Part shown: one piece after another, positions 5,167-44,912 of the stretch
How positions within the stretch are numbered: position 1 is the first letter of the stretch
How the letters are laid out: every line of letters starts with the position of its first letter
DNA from: Isoetes taiwanensis
Lineage: Eukaryota; Streptophyta; Lycopodiopsida; Isoetales; Isoetaceae
DNA: 64,000 nt
Assembly: GCA_021234155.1 (NCBI GenBank)
Contig: JAJEKV010000063.1
Coordinates: forward strand, 3,070,948 to 3,134,947
Reading direction: 5' to 3'
The notes under the pieces: generated by a model
Databases searched by the model: none
What the model saw: the letters and a program-made list of their open reading frames with translations, nothing else
What the model was told of the DNA's origin: nothing
Translations under genes and position numbers: made by a program

Positions 5167-5542
5167 GGTGAAGACACAGTTAATCTGGTTTTGGTGATTC
5201 TGTGGTAGAGATATCCCTTCCGGCGAAATCACCAAAATCGCCCCTTAACCATTTTTTTTCTCAGATATTTGAGCTTGAATACCTCGGCCGATAGAGCTCC
5301 AAATCGATTCGGATCACTTCTATGTGGGTCGGAATGAGACGGATTAGAGGAAATCATCCATGCAAACCAAAAATCAGATCGAGCGCCTCCGAATTCAACC
5401 AATTTCAAAAGGGCAAAACATTGCCCTCAAAATGAGCAGTTTGGGCGAGTAATTCTGCGGGAGGAAATTTTTTTGTGGTGATTCCACGGGAAGAGATATC
5501 TCTGCTGCAAAATCACCAAAATTGGGGTAACTTTATTTCACC
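5167..5542. mobile_element. MITE-like inverted-repeat element, probably MULE-derived
   Basis: The left end (5178-5224) and the reverse complement of the right end (5484-5532) align at about three quarters of positions. Both share TTTTGGTGATT and AGAGATATC. Each end also folds on itself, because GGTGATT is followed some 30 bases later by AAATCACC. The right end in reverse complement begins GTTACCCC, like the termini of the two larger elements in this window. GGTGAA is found at both proposed outer borders (5167 and 5542), but no target duplication is convincing, so the borders are approximate. There is no coding capacity. Confidence 0.6.
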
Positions 5543-5640: not shown

Positions 5641-5760
5641 GACCTCTTTTGGGGAAAGGCAAGTTGAAAATATCCTGCCTTCCAGACGCTTCCGAAGTCA
5701 CCCGATTGGCGGATTCCAAAGTTCTCGTTCAATACGTTACACAAATCCCGCCCTTATAAA
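5641..5760 (+). promoter_or_regulatory. Stranded upstream promoter of the polyubiquitin gene
   Basis: The segment carries an inverted CCAAT box (ATTGG, 5705-5709) and ends in CCTTATAAA (5752-5760), a TATA-type sequence. The same nine bases reappear at 14149-14157, immediately before the polyubiquitin leader. If the MULE and one copy of the duplication are removed, this segment becomes continuous with the ubiquitin 5' leader, with the CCAAT box about 45 bases upstream of TATA. That reconstruction is inference from the target duplication. After insertion the segment lies more than 8 kb from the gene it served. Confidence 0.6.
5752..5760. repeat. Target-site duplication, left copy (CCTTATAAA)
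   Basis: Nine bases directly abut the left terminal repeat and match 14149-14157 exactly. A 9-bp duplication is typical of Mutator-superfamily insertion. Confidence 0.9.
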
Positions 5761-6298
5761 GGCTCAGGATACTTTTACCCTTGATTCGGTGATCCCGGAG
5801 ATAAATTTACCGGCCTCCGGGATCCGGGTCTCCCTCGGCGGGTCCGTTTCGGGAGACCCGCTTACAGGTAAGCGCAGACGCCACGCGTCGGCCCGCACCA
5901 TCCCGCCGTCAAACCCCGTGCAATCCCGGCCGTCCCCTCCGAGATCCCGCCTCCGGGGATCATCCACGCGATCCCCTCCTCCGGGATCCCCGCGGTGGAT
6001 GATGGCTTTTAGGGGGGACGATATCAGCGAGGTGATCCGGGAGGATCCCGGGCACCGGGCGGATCCCCTCCTCGGGGATCACCCCTAATGGCTGATAAGG
6101 GGCGGCTATCCGCCGAGGTGATCCCCCTCCCTCCAGGGATCCCCGCACCCGGGGCCACGGATCCCCTCCTCGGGATCACCCAGCCCAGTGGGCGATAACG
6201 GCCGGGCGCTATCCGCCCGCCGGTGATCCCCTCCTCCCGATCCCCGGCACCCGGACCCGGATCCCCCTCCTCCGGGATCACCCGGTCCGGGCGATAGC
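5761..6298 (+). repeat. Left terminal/subterminal repeat with palindrome array
   Basis: It begins GGCTCAGGATACTTTTACCC. After about 200 bases it becomes a run of imperfect palindromes of the type GATCCCCTCCTCGGGATC, separated by 20-40 bases that include GGCGATA / GGCTGATA segments. Strongly G+C rich and dense in GATC. The inner border is taken as the first ATG of the transposase reading (6299). Confidence 0.8.
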
Positions 6299-8160
6299 AT
6301 GGACCCTATCCGCCAGTCACCACAGGTGAGGGAATGGGTAAGGCAGAAGCTTGTCCAATGGCACACGCCCGCGTAGTGTAATGAACATGCATGAAGAGAG
6401 GTGGAGGTTGAGACTTGAAGTGAATGGACCGAGGGAAAGCATGTGTAGGGATGATGTGTTGAAAATTCGGGACGTGTACAATATTGAAAAGGGAGTTGTT
6501 CGTAACACATGGAAGCTACATGAAGATCTTCCCACTAGCATTGACATGTGGGTTCAACAACATCAAGATTCGGTGTTCATGTATGAGCAAGGAGACTTGT
6601 TTCAATTAGGAGTTATGACTCCAATCCAAAGGGAGTCCATGTTGAAATTTGGCAAGAACAAAGCCATTTGCATGGACTCTACATTCAAAACAAACGACAA
6701 GAGGTGCGGTTCTTCCTCAACTTTTATTGTGTGTTGATTTGATTATTGTGTATGGTTTAATGCAGGTTCTATCTTTTCACACTTCTCGCCTTTGATGAGT
6801 ATTCCAATGGTTTACCATTGGCTTACGTTATTACCAATTCTCAAAAGAGTGGAGCTATAACAAAGTGGATGCAAGCACTAAAGGAGTCCTTATCTTAGAG
6901 ATGATCACGATTGGCGACCTTCTTGCATCATTACAGATGATGCCCATGCTGAGATAAAGGCCGTGAAAAAAGTAACTTGTCAAACTCTAATCCTTGGAAG
7001 CAAATCACAAGTGTACTAACATTGTTTAATTTCATAGGTTTTCCTAGTGTGCCCGTGCAAATTTTGCATATGGCACGTGAGGAGGGCTTGGATCAAGTGG
7101 TTGCGAGAAGAACATCAAGAACAAAGTGGCACGTAACGATCGTTCAAGGAACTTGGTTACATTATGTATACGGACGGAAGGTCCTCTAGGGGGACAATAT
7201 GTAATGCGGTGAAGAGTATAGGGAGGCAGTGGGAGGGAGGCAACTAGGAAATTGGAGGACTTATTGAGGAAGTATCCTCAATACCCCCCAAGTTGGCGGC
7301 TTACATGAGTAAGGAGTGGACCAAAAACATTTGCCAATGGGTATTGGCTACAAGGATGTACCCTCACTCCAACCAAGAGACTAATGCAGCCATAGAGGCA
7401 TGGCATTGTGCCTTGAAAAGGCGCTGGGCATTTCAAAACGAGCACTCAGAGGGCCGGAGGATTGACCGGCTCCTCTACATTCTAACCAACAGCGTGGAGA
7501 CACACATGGCATACATCAGGGTATAACTTCTAATCATCATTTGTAGCCTATTTTGATTTTGCAAGAATATAATTCTCTTGTCATCTAGGTCCATGAAGGA
7601 AGGGGGGTTTGTGGTGAACACCTCCCGGGGAAGAGATAATACAATGTGCCATATTGGGTGCAAGGAAGATTGGCGATGAAACGGTCACATTCACTAACCG
7701 AAGAAGGTGAAGCGAGGTGCAAAGTGAACGACTCTAGGGCAAGGACCATACTTTGTGAGCGGGGGCACACAAGAACCGGGCATCTTTGGATCGGTCCCAG
7801 GGGAGCCAAGGGCAACTTATGTAAGCACCAAGTTAAGGTCATGCAAATGTTGGGCAACTACAGGGATCAAGATCTTTTACGGGTGCTTGGATCTCAATAT
7901 GGGTCAATTTGTGGGGGGCATGGACTACTTGAGGCCATGTGAGGATCATGGGGCCCCTCATGGGAGGAAACCACATCTGAAGATGTGGTTGAGATTGTAA
8001 GCTTGGACGAGTCTCCCTCTCAAAAGGAGGCAAGGATTAACCAGATAAGACAAGGAGATCTTTACAAGAAGTCATTGCTAGAGTGATGTCAAGGGGCGAA
8101 AAAGATCCACGCATGCTAATTGCAAATCGATTCACTCATGAGACAACTTCGACACCTTAG
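6299..8160 (+). pseudogene. MULE transposase with SWIM zinc finger, degenerate
   Basis: The reading starts MDPIRQSPQVREWVRQKL at the inner edge of the left terminal repeat, shifts frame once near 6376, and continues with MNMHEERWRLRLEVNGP. The transposase core has ICMDSTFKTNDKR (first Asp), then YLFTLLAFDEYSNGLPLAYV after an intron (6704-6765), then CIITDDAHAEIKAV (second Asp). A second intron (6972-7037, branch site TACTAAC) precedes FCIWHVRRAWIKWL. ETNAAIEAWHCALKRR supplies the catalytic Glu. A third intron (7521-7588) leads to the SWIM zinc finger (CER...GNLCKHQVKVM, about 7750-7840). In-frame stops occur near 7132, 7245, 7634 and 7940, and frameshifts near 6376, 6885 and 8065. The protein would bind the terminal repeats and cut DNA by a DDE mechanism, but this copy cannot make it. 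Confidence 0.87.
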
Positions 8161-8622
8161 CGGCTTGAAAGAATGGATGATGTTGGCCACCCACCTGGGG
8201 CTCTAACGAACCATAACATGTATCCCCACTAATGCGATGGGAGAGGAGTGTGGTAATAGTTTGGTAAAGAATTTGAAGCCTCTAATAGAAATTGGGAAGA
8301 GGAAAGACAAGGGGAAACCAAGAAGAGTTGGAAGCAAGTTGAGATGGAGGGCTTTGTTGTGAGAATGGCATCGTGAGTTTGTTGTTGTTTAATGCTCATT
8401 GACACCTCATGAGCTTCATTGTCTTGTTAATTGTTCAGGTCAAGTTTAGAGTTTTGTAAGCGGTAGGTATAAATAAATCAATATTCACCTATGTACTTAT
8501 AAATATTGTCAATGTTATCAATGTTTATTGTTAGGAGTTAAATGTTAGGATAATTTAGAACCTTGAGTGCAATGTTTAATGTTTAGAGATTAGACCATAG
8601 GATAAAAACTAATTAAAAAGCG
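8161..8622. other. 3' region of the transposase gene, no clear coding
   Basis: Short frames (for example LVKNLKPLIEIGKRKDKGK near 8260-8320) may be the transposase C-terminus in another frame. From 8380 on the DNA is AT-rich, with GTTTAATGTTTAGA-like motifs, and probably untranslated. Confidence 0.4.
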
Positions 8623-8875
8623 TCGTGGGATCCCCTCCTCCGGGATCCCGTCCGCTATAATGTGATCCCCTCCTCCCGGGATCTCGTCGCCCGACTGGTG
8701 ATCCGTTCTCGGGGGATCCGCGTCGCCAGCAGTGATGATCCCCTCCTCCGGGATCACATCGGGTTATAACGGGATCCCCTCCTCAGGGATCACACATCAA
8801 GTTATAAGAGGATCCCTCCTCAGGGATCCCGCGTCCTTTCACTGGTGATCCCGCCTCCCGGGATCCGCGCGATTG
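8623..8875. repeat. Internal palindrome array I, seven units, at the convergence point
   Basis: Seven imperfect palindromes of the type GATCCCCTCCTCCGGGATC lie about 35-40 bases apart. Flanks alternate between two forms, one with GGGATCCC...GCGTC and one with TGGTGATCCC...GGGATCAC. Consecutive pairs therefore form a higher-order repeat of about 75 bases. The array lies between the 3' ends of the two convergent genes of the MULE. Confidence 0.85.
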
Positions 8876-9875
8876 AATTGTTAGTATATTATTTATAACA
8901 TCCCTTAACCATTGACATATGTCTTGGAATAACCATTGAAATATCCCTTAACCATTACTTTTTAATAAGCTTTGAAACATTGAACTTAATACAATGGCTT
9001 AAAGCCGACATTCCAATTGAATCACTCTGAATCTACCTCTCGCACTTTTGCCATGGCCTCTGCGGGCGTCCTCCTCGATTACATCCGCACACCGGGTAGT
9101 CTCCCCACATCATGTGATGAAAATATGCATACGCGGGGTTGGCTCCGGACCCCTCTAGGACATCCACGATCGAGATCCTTCTTTAGCCGACCTTAGTGCG
9201 GCATACATTTCCCCTCGAAGCGGGCTTTAAGGGTGTTGCCTTCCCGGACAACATCAAGTAGCTAGCAAACGCTTCAAAGCCTTGCCCCGGATAATACACT
9301 TCTTCAATTCCCAAAGCAATGCCCTATGGGTTGGCCTACTAATGGAGAGCATAGTCAAGATGCCTAGGGTCTCCTGAATTCCCCATTCTCCACGGTCTGC
9401 ATGAAGCATGAGGGGATCATGAAAAGATTAATATGAAAGTAGAACATGAATATGAAGCTACTTCGAGCGTTTTGATGCCGGGGTTGGGCGAGCTCTAGGC
9501 CCACATCCTCCTGAATTTCATTCAAGTGGACGAATATCCTCAAGTGTATGGGCATTGATGGCACTTGCTCAACGAACAACTTTGTTGTCGTCCTCACCAT
9601 TTGGCTTGAGCGGTAAGCAATTGAACCGAGATCGCTCTTGAACTCAAGCGAGAGACCCCTTTGAACTCAACTTTCTACCAAGAACAAGGCATGAGTATAT
9701 ATAGACTCATGAGCCAGCCAATTGTACTATAACTTGTTGTACAACGGTTAAATACATAATTCAATTTCTAAAGGTAAGACCATAGGACCATAGGGATAAA
9801 ATGTTTTGAGTTTAGCCAAGTTAAGACCATTGACCCTTGGACCATAGTACCAAAAAGTAATACAAATCGTCACGG

Positions 9876-10135
9876 GGATCCCCTCCTCCTCCGATCCAGC
9901 GTCACTTTACTAGGGTGATCCCGATCCTCCCGGGATCACATATTAATAAAAACGGGATCCCCTCCTGGGGATCCCGGCGTCACTATACTTTGGTCCGTCC
10001 TCCGGGATCACACACAAAGGGAAAATGGGATCCCCTCCTCAGGGATCCCGCGTCATACTTTTGGTGATCCCCTCCTCCCGGATCACACACCCACAAAAAT
10101 AGATCCCATCCTCAGGGATCCCCGTCAGGGATCAC
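9876..10135. repeat. Internal palindrome array II, seven units
   Basis: It has the same palindrome type and the same alternating flanks (GCGTC after one form, CACAC...AAAA after the other) as the array at 8623-8875, in the same orientation, again with about seven units. It lies between coding-like blocks of the minus-strand accessory gene, probably in an intron. The spacers have diverged between arrays while the palindromes are kept. Confidence 0.83.
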
Positions 10136-10470
10136 GGCATTCAACATGTTAATATATATTCAAAGATTCAACAAATTTAACATGTTAATATATGTTAACC
10201 ATTGAAATTATGAATGTATTATTAACCATTGGAATATGTCTAGAACGTTGGCAATAATAAACTTTGATGTTGAAACTATGGTGGAAGCTTTGAAGCATTA
10301 TTCTTTGGTGCATTGAGCCATTGCCAAAAGCCAAAATTACATTCAATTGCTTTGTTTTGACATTGAAGACTTGATGAAGATATTCACATTCAAGATAATT
10401 ACATTCAAGTGTTCGGATATTCACATTCAAGAAAATATTCACATTGGGGAGTTTTTGAGATATTCACATT
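10136..10470. other. AT-rich stretch with short ATTCACATTCAAG repeats
   Basis: ATTCACATTCAAGA-type motifs recur four to five times between 10381 and 10472, and AACATGTTAATATAT occurs twice near 10143-10200. Probably intronic within the accessory gene. No coding signal was seen. Confidence 0.5.
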
Positions 10471-12939
10471 CACAAACTTGTAGATCCTTACCAGCATGTC
10501 AAGGACCATGTACCCAAAAGCAGTGCGGATCCGATCTATCACCCGTGTCACCACAGGGGGGCCAAGTAAAGGTGGACTTCCACGCAGCCAAGCAATCATG
10601 TAGTTTTCACGGGCATTATCTTGAAGCGACCTCATGCAATCTATGTCTTCTTTTTTTTTTGAACCAATCACGGTTAATCGAATGCATTAAAACATGAATT
10701 TAGCCATGAACTGAAAATTTGCCTAAAAAAGAAACAAGAAACATAAAAGCTAGACTCACATTATCCTCCTTTGCCAGCGATGTCTTTAACAAATTTCTTC
10801 ACATAATTTATGACATACACACCACAACCAGAATTATTGTCTTTGTTGGGGAGTTTCTAATGGAATCACGTGGTGCATTATGCAATGCACTTTCCTCATG
10901 CCTCCACCTCTTAAACAAATGCTCGTGAGGAATGCGCAAGTATGAATAAGAAATTAGCTTCAATCATAATGCAAAAGATTAAATATTTCGAAGTTAGAGA
11001 GGAATACTTACGATTGTCACAAATTCTCGGGTAGATGCATGCAAGGGGGCATATGAATCAAGGTCACGAGGAATGCAAGGGCGGGGAGCTTTCAAAAAGA
11101 AGAGCACATGAGCCATCGATCACTAAGATGAAAAAGGCTCCAATGGCCACTAAGAAATAGCAATTTGAAAGGCAATTAGAATAGATTTAAAACTTAAATA
11201 ATCGGGTGATCTGAGTTTACCCAAAGATTGACAGGGAATATAATAGAATTGTCTTTGTCTGGATCTTCCACAGGTGCCCTACCAAGCGGGTTGTCGAGGG
11301 GGGATGAGCTTGGCAAAGCGCTCATAAGCCCTACACAACCCTTTTGCTTCCATTCAAAAACGGCCGAATGCGGCGGGATGCAAGAACACATGATGGCACC
11401 TTTTCGGATTGGAATTGAGTCTTGAAATTACCCTGTACAACCAATTGAGCAATTCGATGCAATGAAAACTGAAATTGAAGAAACTTAAGAACTTAAAACT
11501 TACAGGAGATAAGAACCAATGCAATCCGGAGTCCACATCGCTCTCCCACATCCCAGGGGCGAGGAAAGGGATTGTCATAAATTTTAGGGCCTCGGCTTCT
11601 TGGATGTAAAACTTCGACATTTCTCGACTTCTTGCCCCACCTTGATGAAGGGGCTCTCAACCACCACAGGGGAAATTTAATGTGAAGGGGCCACTGCCAT
11701 CGATCGGCATCAACACCTCTTTGGTAGTCCAAAAGCAGAATCGAGAAAATGTGGATCGACAATTACAAATGATCTGAAGATAATCTTGCTGGGCTTGGGA
11801 ATATTAGCTTCGAGCTCAGGTTTCAGCCAGGATCCGGTTAAGCGCCATGACTTGATGGATTTAGGAGGAGGTTTTGGGGTTTTGGATGCCTGATGCCTCA
11901 GAAATTTTTGGGCACGGCTTTGGCAACCTGAGGTTTAAAACAAGGGGCAGCTTTAGGCAAAGGGGCCCGGTTTGGGCAAAGGGGCCGAATGCTTTCCTGC
12001 TTTGCCAGCACCTCCCCTCGCTCACATCATCGGCCCAATTGGCTTTGCTCTTTTGCTCTTTGGTTAGTGGAGGCCAAAGCTCATCATCGAGATTAAATTT
12101 TTGGTGCTCTTGCTTTTTGATCCAGGTACCTTTATCTCCTCGATCGCAATTGTTGGCTTTCCAATTCACTTGCTTTTTCTTCCTCTCACACTGTAAATTA
12201 ATGAAGGCTTCTCTTTGGCTCTTATCGAGAAGACCCATTTCAATTTAACTCATCGGCCACCACTCGAAATGTCTCGGCCCTACGCAATTTCGGGGTGAGG
12301 TTGTGGGCATATTTATAGTCCGGATCCATGCCGGCCCGCGAAACCTTTGCATAACTCCTCTTCTTCGATTGGCATTTGTCTTGGCGGGCTCTGCATTGGG
12401 CAAATGAATACGGTTTGGGATCCTCCCCCTCGGCGCATCAGGAACCCGCCACCTATCAACCAAGGCATGCACTCGAAACCTGTGATTTTCGAGCTCAACC
12501 TTCCTGGAGTAACTTTTGGTGCAGTCATCAACTAAGCACTTCCATCTCTTTGCCAGCTGATCGTAACTGTAATCAGGGGGCTCTTCGTTCAAGTAACGCG
12601 CATCAGGCTCGTCTATGACAACACCCTCCTTTCACCCGGCCCCCTTCCTCATTTCAAATGCCATGTAAGCCTAGCGGGTTGGCGTCCACGTGGCTTCGTT
12701 CTTTCACCTCCTCCCTTTGTATTTCTTCCCCACGTAGATTTTCCTCCCCTTCATCAATTTTTGTTGCCCCGGCGGCCGGGGACTCCACCTCGGCATCCCA
12801 ATCCGGCTTCCAGTCGCGGGGCGTGCCCGAATCACGGAATGCATATGAAGCAGCGCCGTCAACACAAAGATTCTCGCCAAAACTGGTGTTGAGGCTGACT
12901 TCCAGGTTTAAGGATTCGTCCATCTGCAAGCCACAGTAA

Positions 12940-13379
12940 GATTTAGTAAAGAATAGTAGGAAATAGTAAAAAACTTGATATAGCAGACCGGAAGGGGTCG
13001 ATTTTACCTCCGTAACCCGTTATCACGAGGTAAACGTTAATGTAAACGACAGCGAGGGCTTAATGGTGCCGTCGCCCACAAAACCATTATTGCAAGGGGG
13101 GAACCCTTGGTGATTTCACCGAGAGTTCTCCCCCGGACTTGGACTCTTGAAATCGGTAGTGCTTCTGCGCCCTCCCGATATCCAAAAGGTCCTACGTATG
13201 GACGGGATTGGCCACGATACCGGCAAAGATTAATGGCCCGGTCCAATTTAATTTTAAAATTAAAGTTGCCGGGCCGCTTTATGATCCCGAGGGGCCGGTA
13301 TAAATCCGCCGGATCTAATGGCCGACAAGAAGCCCGGAGTGCATCTAATCTACGGAGAATAGCGCTCCTGCCTCCCGCC
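12940..13379. other. Region between accessory-gene start and right palindrome array
   Basis: Moderately G+C rich. It holds an inverted AT segment (AATTTAATTTTAAAATT, about 13247-13263) and, read on -, TTTATACC near 13300. The latter could be a TATA element for the accessory gene. The overlapping long frames here on both strands are by-products of base composition. Confidence 0.35.
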
Positions 13380-17180
<3,801 letters not shown>

Positions 17181-17189
17181 TCTGTTTGA

Positions 17190-17254
17190 GCAGACTATAA
17201 TATTCAGAAAGAGTCTACCCTCCATCTGGTGTTGCGTCTCCGTGGAGGATTCTA
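17190..17254 (+). pseudogene. Isolated ubiquitin C-terminal fragment
   Basis: The DNA reads as [20 protein letters not shown] and a stop, the last 20 codons of ubiquitin unit 4, without any upstream ubiquitin sequence. It is the left edge of duplication unit B. Confidence 0.88.
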
Positions 17255-17468
17255 AAATGTTCGAAATAGTACTCTTGAAGTGTCTTGTTCTACATGATAC
17301 CATGGTGTGGCTTTGGATTTGAATTCCATTGTATGTGGCTTCCATGATAAATAAATGAAGTACTTTTATCTAGTCCTGCGTTTATACTATTGATTCTTCA
17401 GTTAATTTTTAATCCTTAAATGTTATTATAAATCTTTTTTGTATTGATTGTTTTGTGTTGTATCTTTT

Positions 17469-17750
17469 GTGCCTCTCATATTGTATCTTTTGTATCATAT
17501 TGTATCTTTTGGTATAGACAATTTTTGCTGTGCCGGTCAGTACTATATCAACACGATGGTTGAGTTTTACAAGAACTCTGGAAAATTGAAAGGATTATAG
17601 AAAAGTGATTGTGCCTCTGGTATCGTATCTTTTGTATCATATTGTATCTTTTGGTATAGATAATATTTGATGTGCCGGTCAGTATTATATAGTACCAACA
17701 CGATGGTTGAGTTTTGCAAGAACACTGGACAATTGAAAGGATTATAGAAA
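17469..17750 (+). repeat. 142-bp tandem duplication within unit B
   Basis: GTGCCTCTCATATTG at 17469 and GTGCCTCTGGTATCG at 17611 start two copies that run through CACGATGGTTGAGTTTT to GGATTATAGAAAA. Unit A has a single copy (about 15380-15520). Confidence 0.85.
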
Positions 17751-19852
17751 ATTGAATGTTTATAAGGCTGGACATGGTGAATTAACTGTGAACCAGCAGC
17801 TCATGCGTTCAGTTTTTAGGTTTATGGGTTGGCCTCAAAAGTTCAGCTCATAGAAGGATATCCATCACTAGTATACGGCCCTATATTTTTATCAATTCTA
17901 GAGTATCAATTGAGAATTGGATTGCTCAGACAGTGATTTCAAGGTATGTGCCCAGCAAAATTCCTGTCGCACTGGAGGCTTTTACATATTGGCTTATGAA
18001 GTGGTTATTTGTTGCAGGATCGTGAATGGGATAAAACATATCTACCCGCATTATCTGCTGAATTTTATCATTTTAGAAGTAATATCGTTGTCCAGTTTTA
18101 TCAGGTATGTTTGCCAACATAGTCAAGGAATTGCTGTTTCATTCTTCCCACAATTTACTAGATTTGAGCCCTGTTACCACGGGGTCTTGACTTTATATCT
18201 GATCTTTATAAACTAATTCCAATGCTCTTTGGAACTAAGTTTTAAGTCGACAAATTTCTTTTTCTTTGCACTTCTTTTGGTCCATCTGTTAAGATGATAA
18301 GCAGTGCCGTATACATAGTAGTAAAATAAATTCCACACTACACATCATCTGTATGCTTCAGACGTACGAGCTCTTGCATCTAAGCTTTCCTTGCAGAAAG
18401 TATTGACGACCATCCTTGAATTATAGGTATATTCCAAACAGTAACAGCTGTTGAGCTGCGGGGTACATTTTTGTGAGGAGAAATGGAGCCAGGACCAGGT
18501 GGATGGTTTTTTTTTTGCTCAACAGCGATCCCTTTGCACTGGACTTTTTTACATGTCAGCTTATGGCTGGCATTTGTTTCAGGAACATGAATGGAGATAG
18601 GTAGCCATGGCTAATTTTGGATGCGTCACATTATCTGCTGAATGCTATCTTTTTGGTACATCAGCCATGCTTGATTTAGAATGCATGGTAATAAGTAGCT
18701 CTTTCATTCTGTACAGTAACAACTAGGTTTGAGCCTAAGTTTTCAACTTGCATGATTTGATGCTGCTGTTTAGGAACTAATTCTAATGCTATTATTTCTC
18801 TCTGGGGTGAAGATATGTCATCGAGTTGATCCATCTGTTCATTTAATCCAGAATGCTAGTTTCTTTTTTTGTTGCAGAAGGTATAACCAAAGTTTATTTC
18901 TCATTTTTTATATGTAGCATTTAAAACCTTCTAGTATACACCCTTCAAAAACTTGCTTCATGGAAGTCCAAGATTGCTTGGGATTAGACCACATAGTCTG
19001 ATGTTCTCAAAAGACGCTGATTCAAAAGACGATGACTTTGCTGGTACCTTCTCCCATCTTCTCCGTCTGCATATGTTACACAATTTTGATCAGAGGTGGT
19101 GCATTTATTCTGCCCAAGGATTTTACCCTGTGAACTATTCTTACTGGTAAAGGAGACTCTAGCTTAGAGGTGCGGGAATACCCTATGAGCTTTACTTACT
19201 GGTAAAGGAGACTCTAGCTTAGAGGTGCTGGAATACATCTGAAAATTGCTGTTGGTTTTGAGAAAACATGTTAGCTTCACTCATTAATTTATTACTTGAA
19301 ATGATTCCCTTTTGGAAACTTGTACTCTATATCATGATCATTGTTGCCTCCATACTCAGTATCTAATCCCAAAGTACTACTTCTTTTTGAGCACTGTGAG
19401 TTATTGTCTGTTACTTAAGATCTGAGCCTGAGCCATCCTAATGGCTCCTAAGATGTATGTGCCATGTAGGTATTATTCTTTACCTCATTATTTTGAGATT
19501 AATTGCTGAAAGCTTAAACTGCGAGTGATTGCCTATTACTTAAAGAAGATATGAGCCATCCTAAGATGTATGTGCCATGTATTATTTTTACCTCAGTATA
19601 TGGAGATGCATTGCTGAATCTTTAATTTTTCGCCTTTCCTTGGTTGCAAATATGAGCTCCTGTTGTATCCTGTGCGGGCGCAAGAGGGATGCGCATAACA
19701 GAAGTCACGAACCACCTCCCTCAGATAGCCACACCTTTATTGGCCCTTGCAGCTGCAGTTTCGGTTCCATTAGTGACATCCCAGGCTACCACTTGAACGT
19801 CAACAATGGGCTTCAGGTAATTCTGTTGGAGCCGCCAGACCATATTTGCTAG

Positions 19853-21381
19853 GCTCATATAATGTACCTTTTCTGCTTCTTCTACATGCTCATCTTTGGG
19901 TCCTTCTGGGTAGTCCTGAAGACATTCCTGAGTTCTTGAGACATTTGTGAAGACATTGAAGACATTCCTGAAATGGGATTGCAGTATAAGCGAGGCTTAT
20001 TGGCATTGTCGTGATTGTTAGGTGTTGTTTTTTCTTCTCACATGCCATGGCATGTATAGTCAAAAGATTTTCAGCATGGTATAATGAGTTCTTGTAAGAT
20101 CTTTGGAGTTGGTGGGGGAGTACGGCATATTCTGGTAGATATGTCATTTGTATTGGCTGATTTTATGTGATTTTGCACGTTACGATATGACGTAACATTT
20201 TTTTACTGGGAAAATTTTAAAAATACCCCTCTATTTTGAGGTATCTGTAAAAAGGCCCTTATATTTTGAGATATTATAAAAATGCCCCTGATATGGCCAC
20301 GAAACTACCAGAGATAAGAGAAGAACGACTGGAATGATTTTGGGCAATCGGAAACAAACCCACTTTGAGAAGATGATCCCGGAGTGGTAAATTGGAGCTG
20401 ATGATTTTGGCTTCCGATAAGATATGAAGATCTGGTTATGGAGCTTGCAAATTTTCTAATTTGGAGCAGGGCCAGAAACAACAATCCCAGAAAACCTACA
20501 AAATCTTGAGCCCTTTGTATTTTCTATGGGCAGAGCTACTAATTCCTTTCTAAATTTCTCTTTTCTTTTTTGTAGATTTTGAGCAATAGAGCTGTCAAGT
20601 TCTTTGGCATGCATGCCACAATTATCTTCAAAAAGACGCTGAAGGGAACTTGTTCTTTGGCATGCATGCCACAATTATTTTTAAAAAGATGTTGAAGGGA
20701 ACCTCTGCGGCTTGGGCATATCTTTGTTCTGCCTTTGGATCACTCTTCTTATTTTAAAGCACAGATTGCAAATTCATGGGTCGAGAGTCTGGCATTGCAC
20801 CAACGGACACCAATTTAACCAGTTGTGTGTGAAAATCTCCAAATTTTGAACTGCTGCTGCTAGATTGTTAATTAGATTCAGAGCTAGCATTGTAGGGATC
20901 GCCTGAAGGCTACAGGCTGTGACGAGCCTGCCCGAGTTGACCCTCTTGGCAACTCGGGATCTTGTCAATATTGCACTAATTCTAAGTTGGTGTGACAAAC
21001 AATTGAATATGGTGAAGAATTGAATCTTCCTTTTGCATAGTTGAAATTGACCCATTTATATACAAGAATTTAGCGCTGGCTCCGGCAGGAGACCTGGAAG
21101 ATATGGCATTAAGATTTGGCACACTTTTATGAGCAATCTCTTTCTCTCACACTTTAAATTTGAAATAGTATATGATGGGTATGTTTCCCTATTGATGAGA
21201 TGAAGATGAGATGATATTTGTTATGTCGTCATTAATGCGAGTAAGTTATGTAACATAGGCTACTTATGTCCGCCAGCGCCTTATACACCCTTGGGGGCTG
21301 AATTTAAGTGAAACCATTGGTCAATTATTTGGTGAAGCTCTTAGATAAGCTCTCCCATGTGATATCCTGATGAAGCGTAGT
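19853..21381. other. Unassigned DNA with a 53-bp doublet
   Basis: At 20601-20703 a segment starting TCTTTGGCATGCATGCCAC occurs twice, 53 bases apart. A stretch near 20220-20290 has three related lines of the type TATTTTGAGRTAT...AAAAATGCCC, a degenerate short repeat. No gene was recognised on either strand. Confidence 0.5.
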
Positions 21382-21390
21382 GAAATCGTT
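21382..21390. repeat. Target-site duplication of MULE-2, left (GAAATCGTT)
   Basis: Matches 23606-23614 exactly. The following G is also shared, so 9 or 10 bases are possible. Removing the element and one copy gives AGTGAAATCGTTGGTCAGTT. This aligns with AGTGAAACCATTGGTCAATT about 75 bases upstream (21308), which supports the reconstructed empty site. Confidence 0.82.
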
Positions 21391-21417
21391 GCGTGAAAAT
21401 ATTTTTTACCGGTTATT

Positions 21418-21655
21418 GTGATTCCATCGCAAGATATTCCCTCTGCGAATCACGGACGGACCCTCGAACGGATCCGCCTCGGAGGCTCCGGATTTTCCGT
21501 CGACAACGTCGGTGTACCTTCCGATGGATCCCAACCATCCGGCTCTATAGGGTCCATCCCGGCAGTCCGTTTTATACCTTCCTGGAATCACATCGCCAAA
21601 TACCACCGACGGAATCACCGCTCTGTTCTCCATGCGGCGGAATCACCGCCCGAGA
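21418..21655 (+). repeat. Left subterminal repeat region of MULE-2
   Basis: GTGATTCC and GGAATCAC arms occur several times (21419, 21585, 21620, 21648), separated by G+C-rich DNA. More diverged than the right array. Confidence 0.7.
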
Positions 21656-21719
21656 ATATTCGATAAAATTCAAATTTTTTTGACGTCCTATTCTTTATTC
21701 TTGTGGGAGGTGTTTTCAG

Positions 21720-22014
21720 GTAGTGCCGGCTATGGCCGCTTTGCTCGGCGATGGCGCCTTCAAAATTTGGATCCACGAGAAGATCTCAAGGGAAGAATAC
21801 TCCTGGTTTTTTAACGACTTAGGGAGATATTCCTTGAGCAGTTTCTTGAAATTGCATGCGGGGCTTGGAGTTCCGTGCGGGCTTCCCTTTTTCTTGCGAT
21901 TAGATGGAGGCGCCGACTTTGCCCTCGCCATCAACGCGGCTATGGCCATGGCGCTACCGCCGAGATACATTTCTCTGAGCTCACGATTTTGGGCTGCGGA
22001 AGATCTAAAAAGAT
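21720..22014 (+). CDS. Possible captured host exon inside MULE-2
   Basis: An open frame of about 98 codons begins just after a good acceptor (GTGTTTTCAG, ending 21719). It ends at a good donor (AAAGAT|GTGAGT, 22015). It reads MAALLGDGAFKIWIHEKI, then GRYSLSSFLKLHAGLGVPC, DFALAINAAMAMALPPRYI and WAAEDLKR. The opposite strand is also open, so strand is not certain. I do not recognise the family. MULEs are known to carry host gene pieces (Pack-MULEs); this could be one. Confidence 0.35.
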
Positions 22015-22838
22015 GTGAGTCAATCCGCTTTGTGAAAAAATCCACACGGATTCCTCGAAGGCGGCAAGGATCCCCGTATGGAAACGACAACATGTCTTTA
22101 CCCTGACGGCGAGCTTTGCTCGTATAGCCCTTATGCATGTCTCAGGTTAAAATTCTCGAATCATGCAAATGCGAGATTGTGGTGGTACAGCATGGTTGCC
22201 GTTGAGGGAAGTGGTGGGCAATGTGGCACAACATGGCTGCTTGTTGAGGGAATCGGGCGAAGATCCGAAGTAATAACCTTGCGGTTGTATTGGCCTTCCG
22301 GGCGGGGTTCAAAAGAGCCGCTTTACGTGATTTCGAGGGTTCTCTAGAGCCGTTTTCTCCGCCTTTTAACTTTTACGCTTAGACGAGGGGAAAACGGAAG
22401 GCAAGGTTAGAGGACTCAATTTTCTACGCACAAGAAAGACAAAAGCCTTGATCTCCCGAATCCCAAGTCTTCTTGAAGTTCCCTCTGGTCGGATCTAGAA
22501 GGTTTCAAAATACAAGGGTAGGTTTGATGGAGCCGGATTCAGTAACAGGGAAGCTTGCAGAGGTCTTCTGCTTATCTGATCTGTGATTTCCGGCCTTCCT
22601 TATAGATAATCGACCCTGCTTTCTGATTAAAACATCTGCCCTCCCGGATCAGAGCCATCAGCCTTCATATATCCATTCGACCCTGTTTTTTTTTTCTGTT
22701 TAAAGCCAATCAAACAACACAGAAACAATCCCAACCGAGAAGCAGATGTTCCAGACCTGGATTTTTTTTGTTTTTGCTCATATTGGACTCAAAGGGCAGG
22801 CCTCACATAGAAAGGGCATTGCCGATATTGGCACGGGG

Positions 22839-22976
22839 TTCAAATCCCCAACCAGAAAAATTCCAGGCAGTTTAGAGCATAACACTGGACATACAGAACA
22901 CAAGGGATTCAAATCCCCAACCAGAAAAATTCCAGGCAGTTTAGAGCATAACACTGGACATACAAAACACAGACAA
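22839..22976 (+). repeat. 69-bp tandem doublet inside MULE-2
   Basis: TTCAAATCCCCAACCAGAAA starts at 22839 and again at 22908. The two copies are nearly identical through AACACTGGACATAC. Confidence 0.9.
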
Positions 22977-23077
22977 AATGGAGTGGCCGAGCTTGTGTAT
23001 TTCCAATGGTTCAGTGTTAATTTCATTCATGATCTTCAAGTAAACATAGGCTTCGCTTAAAGCTCGCTTAACGGAGG

Positions 23078-23575
23078 AGTGATTCCATCTTGCGGAATCA
23101 CGGAGGAGTGATTCCATCTGGTGGAATCACGGAGGAGTGATTCCACCGGGCAGAATCCCATGGTGGTGATTCCACCGGGCAGAATCGCATGGTTGTGATT
23201 CCATCTGGCGGAATAGCAATGTTGTGATTCTGTCTGGCGGGATACGTAAGTGGTGATTCCATCTCACGGAATCAGATGTTCGTGATTCCATCTGGCGGAA
23301 TAGCATGGTTGTGATTCCGTCTGGCGGAGTAACACGATTGTGATTCCGTCTCGCGGAATAAATAATACGGTTGTGATTCCGTCTGGTAGAATACATGAGC
23401 GGTGATTCCATCTCGAAGAATCGTAAATTGGTGATTCCATCTGGCGGAATAGCAAAGTTGTGATTCCGCCGGAAGGTATAAATGACCTGAAAGCGACCCT
23501 GTCAGGTACGGATATACAGATAACGGGGTCTCCGGCCTGGTGATTCCGCGGGATGGAATTTTTTGCGATGGAATC
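23078..23575 (+). repeat. Right subterminal palindrome array of MULE-2, about 15 units
   Basis: About fifteen units of the form GTGATTCCATCTGGCGGAAT are spaced 27-39 bases apart. Arms GTGATTCC and GGAATCAC pair across a short CTGG-type loop. The units vary (CATCT, CGTCT, CACCGGG) and spacers are 10-18 bases of unrelated sequence, often GCATGGTT. Confidence 0.9.
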
Positions 23576-23605
23576 ACAATAACTGGGGTAAAAATATTTT
23601 GTTCC

Positions 23606-23614
23606 GAAATCGTT
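23606..23614. repeat. Target-site duplication of MULE-2, right (GAAATCGTT)
   Basis: Exact match to 21382-21390, directly outside the right terminus. Confidence 0.82.
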
Positions 23615-42078: not shown

Positions 42079-42084
42079 TATATA

Positions 42085-42120
<36 letters not shown>

Positions 42121-42268
42121 TGTATGTATGTATGTATGTATGTATGTATGTATGTATGTATGTATGTATGTATGTATGTATGTATGTATGTATGTATGTA
42201 TGTATGTATGTATGTATGTATGTATGTATGTATGTATGTATGTATGTATGTATGTATGTATATATATG
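42079..42268. repeat. ATGT microsatellite, about 41 copies
   Basis: A short TA run leads into an uninterrupted ATGT tetranucleotide array from about 42091 to 42258, then TATATATG. It abuts the 5' end of LINE-3. Confidence 0.97.

Positions 42269-44912
<2,644 letters not shown>

Follow-up and report, generated by a model that had tools for sequence, protein, structure and literature searches.

Three inverted-repeat elements lie in the window, a 64,000-nucleotide stretch of the Isoetes taiwanensis genome, and all three are Mutator-superfamily transposons (MULEs) of one large group of related families. In families A and B/C, the repeat arrays that many of these elements carry match the elements' own end site beyond its 8-base core, in a family-specific manner, and at either end most subterminal units face outward. 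Judging from these sequence patterns, the arrays probably serve as docking sites for a protein that the element itself encodes. The transposase is the most likely reader, and the C2H2-ULP1 protein encoded on the opposite strand a less likely one.

A large group of related Mutator families

The initial annotation had recognized three elements with inverted ends and a common core. Inverted repeats are indeed present in all three, and the exact core TTACC-N9-GTGATYCC occurs in 1,089 copies in the 1.66-Gb genome, against 61 for a reversed control; the outcome named at the time as refuting, no further copies with the core, did not occur, as they exist by the hundreds. Element 2, of family A, spans positions 5761-14148 and is delimited by inverted repeats of 68 bp that are 99% complementary (5761..5828 on the plus strand, containing GGTGATCCCGGAG, and 14081..14148 on the minus strand) and by a 9-bp target duplication, CCTTATAAA, at 5752..5760 and 14149..14157. 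Element 3, of family B (21391-23605), has inverted repeats at 21391..21443 (plus strand, arm 21402-21443) and 23552..23605 (minus strand), with inverted arms of 42 nt at 83%, and the 9-bp target duplication GAAATCGTT at 21382..21390 and 23606..23614. As for element 1 (5167..5542), it is MITE-like, with inverted arms at 5178-5237/5473-5532 (60 nt, 77%), no array, no palindrome at up to one mismatch per arm and about 40 related places in the genome among the matches listed. The 9-bp target duplications attributed to the group are exact for elements 2 and 3, but no convincing one was found at the flanks of element 1. Two of its relatives have target duplications identified by eye, exact in L058 (ATATTTATG) and with one mismatch in L059. 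Both are array-free, which indicates that arrays are not strictly required and counts against the explanation that we favour below.

Target duplications were sought across the group by searching offsets. They are exact over 9-10 bp in 17 of 29 elements checked, all 17 sitting 13-14 bases outside TTACC; five others have one mismatch and the remaining seven are worse. The group thus displays the defining features of the Mutator superfamily, namely target duplications of 8-11 bp, terminal inverted repeats and a MULE transposase (DDE) domain. CACTA elements have CACTA ends. Membership of that superfamily is ruled out, as the printed ends lack CACTA and the target duplications are of 9 bp, compared with 3 bp for CACTA elements in the accessible part of PMC2613891.

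The long copies carry a MULE/SWIM transposase gene, a small central gene and an antisense gene for a protein combining a C2H2-like finger and a ULP1 protease, arranged in this way at all 28 loci picked by hand. In element 2, the transposase gene is an interrupted remnant in several pieces (6342..8360, plus strand), assigned by a family match via its relatives; translating 6300-8420 did not reveal the N-terminal part that other copies possess. A portion of the central gene, recognized through relatives, lies at 9364..9666 (minus strand), and a remnant of the C2H2-like and ULP1 (C48) protease gene at 10500..13019 (minus strand), convergent with the transposase gene. The latter copy was matched at contig C1071, 3083267-3083948, and its ULP1 domain was scored in relatives. 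The transposase domain PF10551 was detected at E=1.9e-18 in a composite assembled from fragments of several family A copies, and the SWIM zinc finger at 21.4 bits, versus a cut-off of 19.6, in a single uncombined frame. The ULP1 domain PF02902 was found at 7.5e-7 in joined pieces and at 1.2e-5 in one unjoined family C frame. The C2H2 match is a single finger under the Pfam cut-off, and in the one C element followed in full the antisense gene retains the ULP1 domain while its pieces gave no C2H2 match. The central gene matched nothing in Pfam or the PDB beyond one PDB match at E 0.98.

Array units and their orientation

Element 2 has four arrays, two of them subterminal, at the left (array 1, 5941..6281, minus strand) and right (array 4, 13402..13972, plus strand) ends. 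The two others are internal, in the spacers between the transposase and central genes (array 2, 8627..8852) and between the central and C2H2-ULP1 genes (array 3, 9875..10135). The subterminal placement proposed initially is thus correct for both ends but does not cover all arrays. Internal arrays in two spacers between genes are found in families A and E. Palindromes with up to one mismatch per arm number 14 in element 2 (shuffle mean 0.05) and three in element 3 (shuffle mean 0.00). Genome-wide, the perfect GTGATCCC-N7-GGGATCAC form occurs 1,848 times and GTGATTCC palindromes 161 times, both versus 0 in the controls. Chance or low complexity is ruled out by this absence of control matches and by the excess over shuffles in the window.

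The motif GTGATYCC is repeated in both ends and arrays, and, as initially noticed, this arm frame persists across families that differ in their loops; their spacing differs as well. The form of the unit differs. Full palindromes make up many array units in family A and its relatives D and E, and they are common in GTGATCCC families only. The palindrome arrays ascribed to both larger elements are found in element 2, whereas full palindromes are mostly missing from element 3 and its relatives. Families B and C have arrays built of a directional 29-bp repeat, GTGATTCC-RTCnnGn-GGAAT, in which the half-site has GGAAT as a short partner. Pairs at 29 bp number 4,244, against 157 in the control. With exact half-sites, family A has 21 inverted pairs at 15 bp, B has 3 and C has 0, and direct pairs at 29 bp amount to 54 and 67 in B and C, respectively; on these counts, the label 'palindrome arrays' does not fit B and C. 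Element 3 exemplifies this organization, with a short left array of three half-sites pointing left ('<') at up to one mismatch (21584..21646, minus strand) and a long right array of ~13 units of 29 bp, mostly pointing right ('>'; 23079..23468, plus strand). The repeat is shared by other members, since GGAATCAC is the top subterminal 8-mer in 21 of 23 B/C elements (L013 having just 3 copies); it ranks second in L011 and fourth, with one copy, in element 1.

Outside the core, the arrays differ by family. The word GTGATCCCGGAG is present 50 times inside seven family A elements, twice in one D stretch and 20 times in four E stretches, with 0 occurrences in the B and C elements or stretches (11 and 12, respectively). 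Conversely, GTGATTCCATC is present 57 times in B, 56 times in C, once in E and not at all in A and D. The A and B/C ends contain the same words as their own arrays. Families D and E do not follow this rule, as their end site is GGGATCCC but their arrays hold GTGATCCC, which counts against our explanation. So does the consideration that a single evolutionary event may account for the C/T change at position 6.

In family B, left half-sites point outward in 87 cases and inward in 22, and right half-sites outward in 99 cases and inward in 27, about one fifth being reversed, a further point against our explanation. The corresponding outward-to-inward figures in family C are 109 to 11 at the left and 90 to 10 at the right, and the arrays are mirror-symmetric by majority. 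Family A half-sites are themselves balanced in orientation. Scoring the family A palindromes by their loop (7-base loop, up to one mismatch per arm) gave 30 '<', 0 '>' and one tie at the left, and 19 '>' and 0 '<' at the right. In element 2, both scorable full palindromes of array 1 and the single scorable one of array 4 point outward. Orientation is mixed within the internal arrays of an E element (8 and 8). The idea that the palindrome is a functional unit needs to be modified accordingly: the repeat does look like a protein-binding unit, but an oriented, asymmetric one.

Possible readers of the arrays

Our preferred explanation, in which we would place about half our confidence, is that the terminal inverted repeat had its inner recognition half-site tandemly amplified into arrays, and that one element-encoded protein, with the transposase as first choice, reads the end site and most likely the arrays too. 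Arrays would raise the local occupancy of this protein at the ends and help end recognition and pairing. As they adjoin the places where the gene promoters presumably lie, they could also keep these genes open against silencing. One A copy and one C copy share 57% identity in the transposase N-terminus, in keeping with a conserved core being read by a conserved protein. Against this, no known DNA-binding model in Pfam was matched by the N-terminus, and a profile search of the PDB gave no match. Furthermore, the internal arrays of A and E are far from the ends and unneeded for end pairing, and in the E element their orientation is mixed. As to the clade within the superfamily, PF03108, the MuDR-type N-terminal transposase domain of the MuDR clade, and PF03101, the FAR1 DNA-binding domain of the FAR1/Jittery type, are absent among the Pfam matches of the composite transposase at E<=5.

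It is possible, if rather doubtful, that the arrays are instead landing sites of the antisense C2H2-ULP1 protein, with a VANC-like anti-silencing action on non-coding DNA and only indirect effects on transposition. The ULP1 C48 domain of the antisense gene and the flanking of genes by arrays in A elements and one E element are consistent with such a role. However, the VANC domains DUF1985/DUF287 gave no match at E<=1 or 5 in any piece scanned, and the C2H2 match is the single finger under the cut-off mentioned above. Arrays and ends share one site, which a transposase would presumably have to read, and arrays are kept in 2-kb copies too short for three genes. These 2-kb copies may retain arrays passively or profit from them in trans.

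We consider it unlikely that the arrays are functionless, passive tandem duplications derived from the inverted repeat. Such growth would automatically produce outward orientation at both ends, and the mirror symmetry could be its by-product; array length differs widely among copies, with one end often short, and the two MITE relatives do without arrays. Nevertheless, the arrays conserve a 20-bp unit amid linkers whose positions are for the most part close to random: among the distinct 29-bp intervals listed, the unanchored partner ATTCC is found at one offset exactly in 34 of 82 and with up to one mismatch in 62 of 82, and linker positions 0-8 hold 0.03-0.42 bits. In addition, the 15-bp palindrome spacing is kept in A, D and an E element, and internal arrays lie between the same genes in both A and E. 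Finally, that the palindromes act as hairpins or cruciforms, or as transcribed hairpins feeding silencing, rather than as protein sites is very improbable in spite of the frequent 7-base-loop full palindromes of the GTGATCCC form, as the near absence of 15-bp inverted pairs in B and C, where the half-site is kept, indicates that base pairing is not conserved there, and as loop orientation is kept in A.

Known systems and significance

The initial view that no described MULE group is defined by such arrays needs qualifying, since elements with arrays of this kind have precedents in VANDAL/VANC and in the mosquito Muta1, and also in CACTA/TNPA, as far as the available parts of the sources go. 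VANDAL elements have family-specific tandem repeats bound by VANC, according to the sections of PMC5735166 at hand, and ULP1-bearing VANC proteins are the subject of a 2022 study mentioned in the excerpt of PMC13317346. In the VANDAL/KI-MULE elements of Arabidopsis, with their VANC anti-silencing and ULP1-bearing forms, the ULP1 gene is reverse to the transposase gene, as it is here. Unlike those elements, which have no or degenerate TIRs and DUF1985/DUF287 in VANC, ours have clear TIRs, and their array site is also the end site, with directional and mostly mirror-symmetric units.

CACTA elements (En/Spm, Tam1, soybean Tgm) are described in the same partial text of PMC2613891 as having many short subterminal TNPA sites inside both ends that are palindrome-capable and diversified by subfamily, with one end longer in soybean Tgmt*, all of which resembles our arrays. 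In contrast, the present elements have a MULE transposase, and their array site lies within the end itself. Muta1 and related mosquito MULEs likewise have duplications of 8-9 bp and, in their ends, short tandem repeats in a subterminal position; in the consulted portion of PMC5225508, those repeats are of 9-15 bp (9 copies of a 12-bp repeat in Muta1), located inside the long TIR of Muta1 and Muta5, in elements of ~3 kb. Our elements differ in having 29-38-bp units, internal arrays, a ULP1 gene and, in long copies, sites by the tens. In plants, MULEs with tandem TIRs also repeat end sequences, and more sites were proposed to improve transposase recognition, but they duplicate whole TIRs rather than one short site (PMC3310237, from the part available). 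This MULE group is not described in the available parts of PMC5735166, PMC6446971, PMC10398659, PMC5225508, PMC13317346, PMC2528002, PMC2613891 and PMC3310237, most subscription papers being outside the search.

A bolder reading, which we regard as quite doubtful, is that these MULEs might have merged two functions that are usually separate: the oriented 20-bp site, in tens of copies per element, would act as the end site of the transposase and also provide a platform, for anti-silencing or as a promoter, on both sides of each of the three genes, and its sequence would have diverged in step in ends and arrays so that each family licenses itself only. If one protein does read ends and arrays, this group would offer a natural series of families for following the joint change of a binding protein and its site, and a route to watch self-versus-other specificity arise. 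In that case, a connection would also be made between the TNPA-type and VANC-type array systems, which to date are known from separate groups of transposons. Being short and well defined, the oriented unit lends itself to direct tests.

The elements of the window and their relatives

Elements 1, 2 and 3 were read directly in the window sequence, which belongs to contig C1071 of a genome of 1.66 Gb. Element 2 (5761-14148) has 68-bp inverted repeats and the target duplication CCTTATAAA, and element 3 (21391-23605) has the target duplication GAAATCGTT. Element 1 (5167-5542) also has inverted ends, and comparison of ends and duplications revealed no clear target duplication of its own. A polyubiquitin gene adjoins element 2; its first ATG lies about 85 bp beyond the insertion (14149-14234), and the polyubiquitin repeat array spans 14234-15123. 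Together with the MULE and ULP1 content, this gene points to a probable plant origin of the DNA. The 5' flanks of genes are a kind of insertion site said to be favoured by MULEs. Elsewhere in the window, long simple TATG and TA repeats occupy 42079-42265 and 43395-43550.

The initial annotation had noted a terminal core shared by the three elements, and further copies of it abound in the genome: an exact whole-genome search for TTACC-N9-GTGATYCC yielded 533 + 556 copies, against 24 + 37 for a control read backwards. Among about 100 listed core places, 26 elements for which both ends could be fetched were analysed together with the three of the window. In a search that spanned a range of offsets without random control, the target duplication is exact over 9-10 bp in 17 of the 29 elements, has one mismatch in five and is worse in seven. 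In all 17 exact cases, the element end starts 13-14 bases outside TTACC.

The ends define related MULE families, which we label A (TTACCCTTGATTCGGTGATCCC, including element 2), B (TTACCCCGGTTATTGTGATTCC, including element 3) and C (TTACCCTGGTTTTGGTGATTCC). Families D (L049) and E (L050, L054-L056) came to light in the sequence upstream of related transposases. About 40 places among the matches listed are related to element 1. Two of these relatives were read, and neither has arrays; by eye, the 9-bp duplication is exact in L058 and has a mismatch in L059. As these copies show target duplications without arrays, the ends alone can be enough for short copies, at least, to move.

Composition, direction and placement of the arrays

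The palindrome arrays ascribed earlier to both larger elements hold for element 2, but full palindromes are mostly lacking in the family of element 3. Allowing one mismatch per arm, we counted 14 palindromes in element 2, against a shuffle mean of 0.05, and 11 to 29 in each of six further family A elements, as against 0 to 4 in family B and C elements. Genome-wide, with sites pooled over families, perfect GTGATCCC-N7-GGGATCAC occurs at 1,848 sites and perfect GTGATTCC-N7-GGAATCAC at 161, with none in either control. More array units lie at G000:C92:246280-246687; their loop, AAACCGT, differs from those above and suggests that further families share these arms.

The 8-base half-site GTGATYCC of families B and C recurs in direct orientation every 29 bp, with 54 exact pairs at this distance in B and 67 in C. 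In 21 of the 23 elements of these two families, GGAATCAC leads the subterminal 8-mers, although L013 has only three copies of it; a poly-A word outranks it in L011, and element 1 is the other miss. Among the seven family A elements, the half-site comes first in two, as it has to compete with CTCCTC loop words and shifted half-site words.

Half-sites of B and C mostly point outward, with the reservation that sites of the same array are not independent: outward versus inward counts are 87 and 22 at the left and 99 and 27 at the right in B, and 109 and 11, then 90 and 10, in C. They are balanced in family A (89 and 104 at the left, 70 and 84 at the right). There, palindrome direction was set by the loop, for 7-base loops only, taking as head GGAG, the extension of the end itself. 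By hand tally, the left arrays of A have 30 outward palindromes, none inward and one tie, and the right arrays 19 and none; in its internal arrays, 54 point left and none right. Palindromes are outward 5 to 0 in the left array of D, of which the left end alone was read, and 9 to 0 (left) and 4 to 0 (right) in the E element, whose internal arrays are mixed (8 and 8).

The arrays of element 2 (5941-6281, 8627-8852, 9875-10135 and 13402-13972) occupy four non-coding stretches around three genes. All four are present in five of six other family A copies, the sixth (L020) having one internal array, and in the E element, read in three pieces. In the one fully read family C element, the outermost 1.2 kb contain 23 left-pointing half-sites at the left end and 21 right-pointing ones at the right end, and there is only a small internal group besides. 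In 2-kb B and C copies, one array is often long and the other short.

Genes of the long copies

The transposase exon of L031 has 150 scored matches of 58-100% identity among 1,770 candidates, and a composite transposase matches PF10551 MULE (1.9e-18) and SWIM. In the exon search, the D and E copies read match at 79-86%; the transposases of A, D and E are similar. The strand opposite the transposase carries a second gene, with 151 matches in the genome. Its product has a C2H2-like finger scoring below Pfam's cut-off and a ULP1/C48 protease domain, which scores 7.5e-7 on joined pieces and has SENP7 (E 3.1e-5) as the nearest relative of solved structure. Between the two genes lies a central one of about 130 aa, with 150 scored matches in the genome, no match in a Pfam search and no credible one in a PDB search. 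The order transposase forward, central gene reverse, C2H2-ULP1 gene reverse holds in 28 of 28 loci, chosen because all three genes were listed there. Of 61 C2H2-ULP1 matches in a partly selected subset, 52 have a transposase match at most 25 kb away. The pair is convergent in 50 of these cases; the two exceptions lie on contigs C1039 and C1029.

The genes of element 2 are interrupted remnants. In family C, one element was read as a full copy (L051+L053): it contains a frame for the transposase and, antisense to it, one for ULP1 (1.2e-5), with no C2H2 match in the pieces scanned. Between the transposase and ULP1 genes of family C lie short tandem repeats with several frames open on both strands (L053:1780-2705 and L015:4109-4844). 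By eye, a 906-aa open frame within another family C element (L013:4067-6784) resembles a LINE reverse transcriptase, apparently a nested insertion, and two frames within a family A element (L043:6600-9330) resemble a copia-type retrotransposon.

A site common to ends and arrays, and its putative reader

GTGATCCCGGAG, found in A ends, has 50 copies inside seven A elements, two in the D stretch, 20 in E stretches and none in the B and C elements and stretches examined. GTGATTCCATC, found in B and C ends, has 57 copies inside B, 56 inside C, one in E and none in the A and D elements and stretches examined. D and E are an exception, with GGGATCCC in their ends and GTGATCCC in their arrays. As the A, D and E transposases are similar, the C-for-T difference between family sites may be one event.

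The B and C consensus around the half-site is GTGATTCC-RTCnnGn-GGAAT. Among 82 distinct spacers, from the first places among the 29-bp pair matches listed and including related, hence not independent, copies of one insertion family, the ATTCC partner at offset 9, left unanchored, is exact in 34 and within one mismatch in 62. Information content is 0.03-0.42 bits at linker positions 0-8, as against 0.79-1.46 bits at positions 9-13. Retention of the 20-bp unit while linkers decayed argues for selection acting on that unit.

On the simplest account, the inner half-site of the inverted repeat would have been amplified in tandem, so that ends and arrays share sequence and units point outward. Transposases in general must read their own ends, and a single protein reading both end and array would most simply be the transposase. 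The main rival is that the antisense C2H2-ULP1 protein might read the arrays, for which VANC offers a precedent. VANC proteins of VANDAL elements bind short motifs of tandem repeats in non-coding DNA, with motifs that differ by family and binding that leads to methylation loss (PMC5735166, PMC10398659), and some VANC genes include ULP1 (PMC13317346). Other precedents are a ULP domain in reverse orientation in KI-MULEs (PMC2528002), TNPA binding to subterminal repeats that vary by subfamily in CACTA (PMC2613891) and subterminal tandem repeats in mosquito Muta1 (PMC5225508). The present group stands apart in that its inverted repeats themselves hold the array site and in that no VANC domains were detectable in the pieces scanned.
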